Assembly (NCBI GenBank): GCA_020831765.1
Contig: JAFIFY010000059.1
Coordinates: forward strand, 1-64,000
DNA length: 64,000 nt
Source of the DNA: Phycisphaeraceae bacterium
GTDB lineage: Bacteria > Planctomycetota > Phycisphaerae > Phycisphaerales > Phycisphaeraceae
Direction of reading: 5' to 3'
The position numbers and the translations under genes are program-made. Shown here in pieces: positions 14,214 to 54,035 of this stretch. Within the stretch, counting starts at the first letter, position 1. Every line of letters begins with the position of its first letter. The notes beneath the pieces are model-generated. The model did no database searches and was not told the DNA's origin. It saw only the letters and a program-made list of their open reading frames with translations.

Positions 14214-14255
14214 CGCTTTTGCAGCGTCCGCAGTTGCTGCAAAAGCGTTTTATCT
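14214..14255 (+). terminator. Intrinsic terminator after fliA
   Basis: CGCTTTTGCAGC (14214-14225) and GCTGCAAAAGCG (14236-14247) form a perfect 12-bp stem with a 10-base loop, followed by TTTTATCTT. This is a textbook rho-independent terminator and closes the flagellar transcript. The rest of the 293-base spacer (14106-14398) shows a pyrimidine-rich tract just before the stem and nothing else I can name. Confidence 0.9.
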
Positions 14256-23946: not shown

Positions 23947-25221
23947 ATGGATGATTTATCGGCACTGATCACCGCCCTGGAGCAGGGGAAGATGGTCGTG
24001 CTGGCCGACGACACGCAGCGCGAGAACGAGGGAGACCTGGTCATCGCGGCCCAGCACATCACCCCCGAGGCGGTGAACTTCATGCTGCGCGAAGCGCGGG
24101 GGATGCTCTGTGTGGCCCTCTCGCCTGAGATTTGCGATCGGCTGGACCTCGAGCCGCAGTCGGCCCAGAACAACACCCAGCGCGGCACGGCGTTCACCAT
24201 CAGCGTGGATGCCCACCACCGCTTTGGCATCTCGACCGGGGTCAGCACCGCCGACCGGGCCCGGACCATCCGCTTGCTTGCCGATCCCGATGCCACGGCC
24301 CGCGATTTTGTCCGCCCCGGCCATGTCCATCCGCTCCGCGCCCGGGATGGCGGGAGCCTGGTCCGAGCCGGCCAGACCGAAGGATCGGTGGACCTGTGTC
24401 GCCTGGCCGGGCTGATCCCCGCCGCCGCGATCATCGAGGTGCTCAATGATGATGGCACCATGGCGCGGCGGCCGGAGCTGGAGAAGCTCTGCCGGAAGCA
24501 CAACCTACTGATGGCCACCGTCGCCGACGTGATTCACTACCGGATCGAACGCGAAAAGCTGGTCCGGCGGATCGATGAAGCGCCTTTCCAAACGGAGTTC
24601 GGCGAGTTCCGGTTGATCGCCTACGAAAGCGATGTCGATCCGCTGCCCCATGTGGCCCTAGTGTGTGGCGAGGTTGGCCGGCTGGATGCTTCCGGGCGAC
24701 CGATCGAGCTGGACCGGCCGATCCTGGTGCGCATGCACAGCCAGAACCTGCTGGGCGATGTCTTCGGTGATATGGCCCAGCCATCGGGCAGCACGCTGCG
24801 GGATGCCATGAAGTTGATCCAGCGCCAGGGGGAAGGCGCGATCGTCTACCTGCGGCACGAGCAGATGGGCCAGGGTCTGTTGCGGCGATTGCAGACGCTG
24901 CGTCCGTCCGGCCCGCCGCGCGAAGCCGAATCCTCAACCCCTTCCAACTCGGGCACCATGCAGGACATGGAAGGGCCCGGCAAGGCCACCGATTTCCAGG
25001 GCGATCACCCGGCCATCGGCCGAAGCCAACTCGAACCCGGCATCCGCCCGCCCGCCGATAAACGCGACTACGGCATCGGCTCGCAGATTCTCCGCGACCT
25101 GGGCATCCGCCAACTCAAACTCATCACCCGTCACGGCTTCACCCCCACCGCGCTTGCCGGCTTCGGCCTGTCCATCGAAGGCTTCATCGACCCGGAAACC
25201 GGCCGGATGACCGGCGACTGA
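23947..25221 (+). CDS. ribB: 3,4-dihydroxy-2-butanone-4-phosphate synthase with degenerate GTP cyclohydrolase II domain (RibBX type)
   Basis: The N-terminal ~205 residues are an intact RibB domain (VVLADDTQRENEGDLVIAA, then RPGHVHPLRARDGG and RAGQTEGSVDL), which makes the four-carbon precursor of riboflavin. The C-terminal part aligns with RibA, but the zinc cysteines are gone: the usual HSEC is HSQN (N267), and the CxC that follows is replaced around Q278 and S280. The usual NNPRK near the end is also lost, though RDYGIGSQILRDLG is kept. The second domain is therefore probably not a cyclohydrolase. RibB fused to inactive RibA is a known variant called RibBX. No FMN riboswitch is visible upstream. 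Confidence 0.93.
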   Translation: MDDLSALITALEQGKMVVLADDTQRENEGDLVIAAQHITPEAVNFMLREARGMLCVALSPEICDRLDLEPQSAQNNTQRGTAFTISVDAHHRFGISTGVSTADRARTIRLLADPDATARDFVRPGHVHPLRARDGGSLVRAGQTEGSVDLCRLAGLIPAAAIIEVLNDDGTMARRPELEKLCRKHNLLMATVADVIHYRIEREKLVRRIDEAPFQTEFGEFRLIAYESDVDPLPHVALVCGEVGRLDASGRPIELDRPILVRMHSQNLLGDVFGDMAQPSGSTLRDAMKLIQRQGEGAIVYLRHEQMGQGLLRRLQTLRPSGPPREAESSTPSNSGTMQDMEGPGKATDFQGDHPAIGRSQLEPGIRPPADKRDYGIGSQILRDLGIRQLKLITRHGFTPTALAGFGLSIEGFIDPETGRMTGD

Positions 25222-25578
25222 GGGCGGATCGGACACCCGGCAAAACGTATCTCCACGTGCTGGTCGATTCCCGGCCCGTGGTCGATCGCGACCCGAATTG
25301 ATCTTAAAGGCGCGATTTAAGTCAAGTATACTTTGCTTAAATCGCGCTTTTAAGGCCAATTTGGTGATTTCGGGGTGCTTTTCGGGGGTCAGGTTGCTTT
25401 TCAGGAGACAAAAATATCTGGTGGTTTTGGCCGCTCGGGGGCGATCGGGTGCGGGTTGCGGGAGGGCGTATCGGCCGCGAATTTCCGGGCAGTTTCCGGT
25501 CGAACCGGTCAGGATCGGGGGCGACGATTCGTGATAACCTGTTGGCGATGGATCACCGCATCGGCATGGAGCAAAACG
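25222..25578. other. 357-base spacer with a locally AT-rich palindrome
   Basis: This spacer separates ribB from ddl on the same strand. It contains the large palindrome listed separately. After it comes an imperfect 20-nt direct repeat around TGCTTTTC (two copies, ~25376 and ~25393). I see no gene in it. Confidence 0.6.
25293..25364. repeat. 72-bp near-perfect palindrome
   Basis: Two 36-base arms meet at 25328/25329 with no spacer. Thirty of 36 positions are Watson-Crick complementary. Of the other six, four would be G-U pairs in a plus-strand RNA and two are real mismatches (A-C and C-U). The centre is AAGTATACTT. The segment is far more AT-rich than its surroundings. It could be an operator, a terminator-like structure, a recombination site or the footprint of a small mobile element. 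Confidence 0.85.
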
Positions 25579-26496
25579 ATGAAGGTCATGGTTCTGGCAG
25601 GCGGCCCGGATCGGGAACGGGAGGTGAGTCTTCGTTCGGGCGAGCAGGTGGCTCAAGCGCTCAGGGAGGCGGGTCACGAGGTTCTTGTGCGGGATGTGCT
25701 TCCCGGGGCCCTGGGCGTTCTGGATGAGTTTTCGCGATGGGGCGGGGATGTGATCTTCCCGGCGCTGCATGGCCCGTGGGGCGAGGGTGGCGGCTTGCAG
25801 GCGATTCTGGATGAGCGCGGGCTCGCTTATGTTGGCAGTCGCGCACCGGCGGCGCGCTGCGCGATGGATAAGCACGAGGCCAAGCGCATCCTCGCCGAGG
25901 CGGGAATCACGGTTCCGCATGGTGAACGGATCACTTTGCCCGGCAAGCCGAACTTGCCGCCGCCGGTGGTGCTCAAGCCGGTTGATGAGGGTTCGAGCAT
26001 CGGAGTCAAGCTTTGCCCCGATGCCGAATCGCTGGCTTTGGCCCTGGAACAACTGGGTGATGAATATCAGCAATTGCTCGTCGAGCGGATGATCCGTGGG
26101 ATCGAGTTGACGGTGGGTGTGCTGGGCACGGGTGGTGGCCATCGCTGGCTGCCGCCGATCCAGATCGTCTCCGTCACCGCCTTCTTCGATTACCAGGCCA
26201 AGTATCTTCGCGATGACACGCGCCATCTGTTCGATATCGATCTGGATGTCGCTGTTCTGACGGCGATCGGCGAGCAATCGGTCAAGGCTCACGAGGCCCT
26301 GGGCTGTCGGCACCTTTCACGCGTGGATTGGATCGTGGAGCCCGCTGGGACGGCGTATTGCCTGGAAGTCAATACGCTGCCAGGATTTACGAGCAAATCA
26401 CTGCTGCCCGAAGCCGCCGCCCGGTCGGGGCTTGCCTTTCCCGAGCTGGTCGATCATCTGGTCTGTCAGGCCGCGGCGGAACCAGCGACGGCGTGA
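25579..26496 (+). CDS. ddl: D-alanine--D-alanine ligase
   Basis: Ddl joins two D-alanines for peptidoglycan precursor synthesis using ATP. The start MKVMVLAGGPDREREVSLRSG is the standard head (VLxGGxSxEREVSL) and has a GGAG site seven bases upstream; a longer frame to 25375 adds unrelated residues. ATP-grasp motifs follow: FPALHGPWGEGGGLQAILD, KPVDEGSSIGVKL, YQAKY, and CLEVNTLPGFTSKSLLP. Length, 305 residues, is normal. Its presence implies that this organism makes D-Ala-D-Ala precursors. A weak hairpin (26539-26567) lies after the stop. Confidence 0.95.
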   Translation: MKVMVLAGGPDREREVSLRSGEQVAQALREAGHEVLVRDVLPGALGVLDEFSRWGGDVIFPALHGPWGEGGGLQAILDERGLAYVGSRAPAARCAMDKHEAKRILAEAGITVPHGERITLPGKPNLPPPVVLKPVDEGSSIGVKLCPDAESLALALEQLGDEYQQLLVERMIRGIELTVGVLGTGGGHRWLPPIQIVSVTAFFDYQAKYLRDDTRHLFDIDLDVAVLTAIGEQSVKAHEALGCRHLSRVDWIVEPAGTAYCLEVNTLPGFTSKSLLPEAAARSGLAFPELVDHLVCQAAAEPATA

Positions 26497-53996: not shown

Positions 53997-54035
53997 GCCG
54001 GTGGAAGGGCCAGCCCCCTCCACCGGCTTTTTTTT
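53997..54035 (+). terminator. Strong intrinsic terminator after the propeller gene
   Basis: GCCGGTGGAAGGG (53997-54009) pairs with CCCCTCCACCGGC (54015-54027) with one mismatch, followed by a run of eight T (54028-54035). This is the clearest rho-independent terminator in the window. The rest of the 300-base spacer to the next gene shows no other feature I can name. Confidence 0.93.

Follow-up and report, generated by a model that had tools for sequence, protein, structure and literature searches.

A long AT-rich palindrome between ribBA and ddl as a probable transcript-end hairpin in a Phycisphaeraceae bacterium

The region between ribBA and ddl in this genome carries a 72-bp imperfect palindrome that, judging from the sequence and its context, is probably the transcript-end hairpin of ribBA and most likely takes the form of a bidirectional-type intrinsic (Rho-independent) terminator. 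The palindrome and the genes on either side are arranged as follows in the window, the whole 64-kb stretch of DNA that was analysed:

23947-25221, + strand: ribBA, with DHBP synthase and GTP cyclohydrolase II domains (riboflavin synthesis; Pfam PF00926, PF00925)
25293-25364, + strand: 72-bp imperfect palindrome, the whole hairpin (palindrome search, RNA fold)
25579-26496, + strand: ddl, D-alanine-D-alanine ligase, the next gene downstream (Pfam PF07478, PF01820)

The two arms of the palindrome (25293-25328 and 25329-25364) have 36 bases each, adjoin without any spacer and are complementary at 30 of 36 positions. The first base lies 71 nt past the stop codon of ribBA, on the same strand, and the palindrome is ~215 bp upstream of ddl. 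Its GC content is 39% versus 63% across the window, and base composition predicts a palindrome of this kind, allowing for 31 spacer lengths, ~4e-6 times in 64 kb and 3e-4 times in the 4.7 Mb of a whole genome. Recomputation reproduced exactly the coordinates, arm length, lack of a spacer and arm identity given in a preliminary description of the region, and its remarks on the AT-richness and rarity of the palindrome were equally borne out. A recount also agreed that four of the six exceptions between the arms would be G-U pairs in RNA of the + strand. All four are transition-type mismatches, a bias that fits selection on the + strand RNA but is weak (p ~0.06). An inverted-chimera assembly artefact was considered and is unlikely, given six differences between the arms that lean to G-U. 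Directly past the palindrome, two adjoining 19-nt direct repeats that are 79% alike occupy positions 25370-25407, where the GC content is below that of the flanks. The ddl frame stays open for ~68 codons upstream of its likely ATG at 25579 (25375-25578), a stretch that is probably non-coding, and an antisense ORF of 459 aa that crosses the palindrome site has no Pfam match.

Folding of the palindrome as + strand RNA gave -43.3 kcal/mol, compared with a mean of -19.6 for shuffled sequences (z -7.17), in support of the structured RNA that had been listed among the earlier options. The - strand RNA reached -34.4 kcal/mol (z -6.44), and the inner segment 25301-25356 alone folded at -30.7 kcal/mol (z -9.3) into a stable hairpin with a GC-rich stem base. 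No Rfam family matched at gathering score anywhere in the window. When hairpins were surveyed over 339 kb of the same genome, comprising the window and 20 further stretches, the palindrome had the highest score (25), followed by a runner-up at 18.6, and the best hairpin of a Markov control scored 14.7. The second-strongest hairpin of the sampled genome (L164:4866-4933, on contig C110) is likewise AT-richer than its surroundings, lies 11 nt past a + strand stop codon and is also without a T-run.

The elements that point to a terminator are found inside the palindrome, on the + strand:

25304-25308, + strand: TTAAA, an upstream tract that pairs with the T-run and that on the - strand would itself be a T-run
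25310-25321, + strand: 5' arm of a perfect 12-bp core stem, GCGCGATTTAAG (sequence, fold)
25336-25347, + strand: 3' arm of the core stem, CTTAAATCGCGC (sequence, fold)
25348-25351, + strand: TTTT, a likely U-tract directly 3' of the GCGCG base of the core stem

The loop of the core stem has 14 nt and is able to form a small inner stem, and the TTAAAG just 5' of the core stem pairs with the TTTT. Read from the sequence, the GC-rich base, the T-run and the A-tract upstream that pairs with it are arranged as in an intrinsic terminator of bidirectional type. The preliminary description had held that there is no T-run after the palindrome and that a normal terminator does not explain it. The absence of a T-run is correct for the 72-bp unit as a whole and incorrect for its GC-rich core; the run was missed because it was sought after the whole unit and lies within the 3' arm. 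The rejection of a terminator thus loses its support, and the position of the palindrome, the habit of the genome and the family relatives all fit a hairpin at a 3' end. A general lesson is that a hairpin of terminator type is easily overlooked when its T-run sits within a longer palindrome.

What was observed is the sequence, fold and position of the palindrome and the enrichment of hairpins at the ribBA end in relatives; termination at the palindrome, and its direction, is inferred. RNA polymerase copying the TTTT at 25348-25351 would allow the GCGCG-based 12-bp stem to fold, capped by the small inner stem-loop, and the transcript would be released. If the polymerase read through, the longer hairpin would be completed, the U-run now paired to the upstream TTAAA and ~8 further pairs contributed by the outer arms. 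The hairpin would in this way separate the transcription of ribBA from that of ddl. A-tracts that precede terminator hairpins are known to make termination bidirectional, on both strands (PMC4824070), and GC-rich Streptomyces are reported to have the longest and most stable terminator hairpins together with the weakest U enrichment (PMC12207403). Against a terminator stand the U-run, which consists of four T only before continuing as AAGGCC and is weak for an intrinsic terminator, and the hairpin itself, which is AT-rich and far longer than needed. Because the U-run is short, termination efficiency may be modest. Further, a simple terminator scan (loop of 3-8, at least five T) listed nothing at the palindrome, although these limits would exclude such a hairpin in any case.

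Terminator-like hairpins occur elsewhere in the genome at comparable distances from stop codons. One at 53997-54027 is followed by T8 (TTTTTTTT) and lies 33 nt past a stop, another at 14214-14247 is followed by TTTTATCTT and lies 108 nt past a stop, and a third, on the - strand of L149, is followed by TTTTTT. With genes in the surveyed stretches called by a simple codon-bias script rather than by full annotation, a T-run of at least four followed 7 of 122 hairpins located past same-strand stops, versus 4 of 1059 within genes (p = 2e-5) and 2 of 145 among other intergenic hairpins (p = 0.05). This enrichment argues for termination, but hairpins precede start codons (19/114) about as often as they follow stops (17/94), so that the mere presence of a hairpin is not specific.

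The family relatives provide a further line of evidence. Of 29 relatives, 10 have a hairpin of 10 bp or more in the 130 nt that follow the ribBA stop, as do 18 of 203 coding windows used for comparison (p = 6e-4); in the four 130-nt bins after that, only 2-4 of the 29 per bin have one. These hairpins are unrelated in sequence to the palindrome at 25293-25364, and several of them (L177, L190, L192) end in paired T-runs, the T-run ends being GGGCTTT, GTGGTTTT and GCGGGTTTTTG. The end of ribBA thus appears often to carry a hairpin while the sequence turns over, as would be expected of terminators, which suggests that in this family, probably Phycisphaerae-like planctomycetes to judge from the nearest named ddl relatives, the end of ribBA is often a hairpin that evolves fast and does not keep its sequence. 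The hairpin at 25293-25364 is itself unconserved, which counts against a terminator. The two closest relatives that share this gene order have ~80 bp (G033) and ~4 bp (G001) between ribBA and ddl instead of 357 bp, and neither gap contains a comparable hairpin, so that the conservation proposed as a check on the palindrome was absent from both. At 27 other ddl loci of the family ribBA was absent from the fetched upstream flank, some of these flanks ending at contig ends. Relatives were also seen to have long imperfect palindromes in intergenic DNA, 70-85 bp in length and different in sequence (L064:562-646, L065:197-268 and L078:3889-3965), which are possibly repeat families of those genomes.

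Other explanations were weighed against a terminator. The hairpin may occupy the 3' UTR without terminating transcription, blocking 3'-5' exonucleases or marking a processed mRNA end, with termination taking place further on, for example by Rho. The very stable fold, the weak U-run and the many post-stop hairpins of this genome that are without T-runs agree with such a role, but it would leave the TTTT exactly at the base of the GC-rich core unneeded, and we regard it as unlikely. As the source of the palindrome, a small palindromic mobile element now in decay, or a pair of inverted-repeat ends left by a lost transposon, is harder still to credit. The palindrome is lineage-specific, is AT-rich within GC-rich DNA and lies in a gap that is longer than the ~4-80 bp of the two syntenic relatives, and all of this would suit such an element. 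However, a DNA search of the 4.7-Mb genome, the check for other copies that had been proposed, matched only the palindrome itself. The sole exact 11-mer match elsewhere (C99) does not belong to any palindrome and was discarded. Samples of the class (397 genomes) and the phylum (392) yielded no relative, the best matches being two partial ones of 21-24 bp (E ~0.006) at chance level; phages and viral contigs gave no match, and plasmids a single chance-level one of 26 bp (E 0.3). No target-site duplication was found flanking the palindrome, and the profile of the REP-associated Y1/RAYT transposase (PF01797) had no match in the genome, whereas control genomes were matched.

A site acting at the DNA level appears very improbable, whether as an operator bound by dimeric regulators or as a site of recombination or telomere resolution. 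It would account for the long symmetric DNA and its central AAGTATACTT, but the palindrome is single-copy, its position ~215 bp upstream of ddl does not favour it, the lean of the mismatches to G-U is relevant in RNA only, and the protelomerase profile (PF16684) had no match in the genome. The single copy, the lack of kin, of a Y1 transposase or protelomerase and of a target-site duplication together speak against a telomere-like site and against a repeat family that is active. Accordingly, no positive evidence was obtained for the mobile element, the recombination site or the dimer-binding operator suggested in the preliminary description. A broader proposal would see in the palindrome no terminator but a DNA element specific to this lineage, by which ribBA and ddl were split apart; it could be a binding site, or a palindromic mobile element of which it is the remnant or the founder. 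This is likewise improbable. A terminator of ribBA, the preferred reading, would give the palindrome an ordinary role and a small significance, the unusual part being the length and AT-richness of the hairpin.

Compared with known systems, the palindrome resembles bidirectional intrinsic terminators in its GC-rich stem base, with a T-run directly 3' and a pairing A-containing tract directly 5', and in its position within ~100 nt past a stop codon. Unlike them, it has a stem of ~33 pairs that is AT-rich outside the core, and its short T-run (4) is buried in this longer stem. Small palindromic repeats such as REP/REPIN are similar in being intergenic palindromes of 70-odd bases, but the present palindrome is single-copy and its genome has no match to a RAYT-type (Y1) transposase, which sets it apart from REP/REPIN or MITE elements. 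Protelomerase target sites (telRL) are also long near-perfect palindromes; they differ from the present case, where the genome has no protelomerase family match and the neighbouring genes are housekeeping genes.
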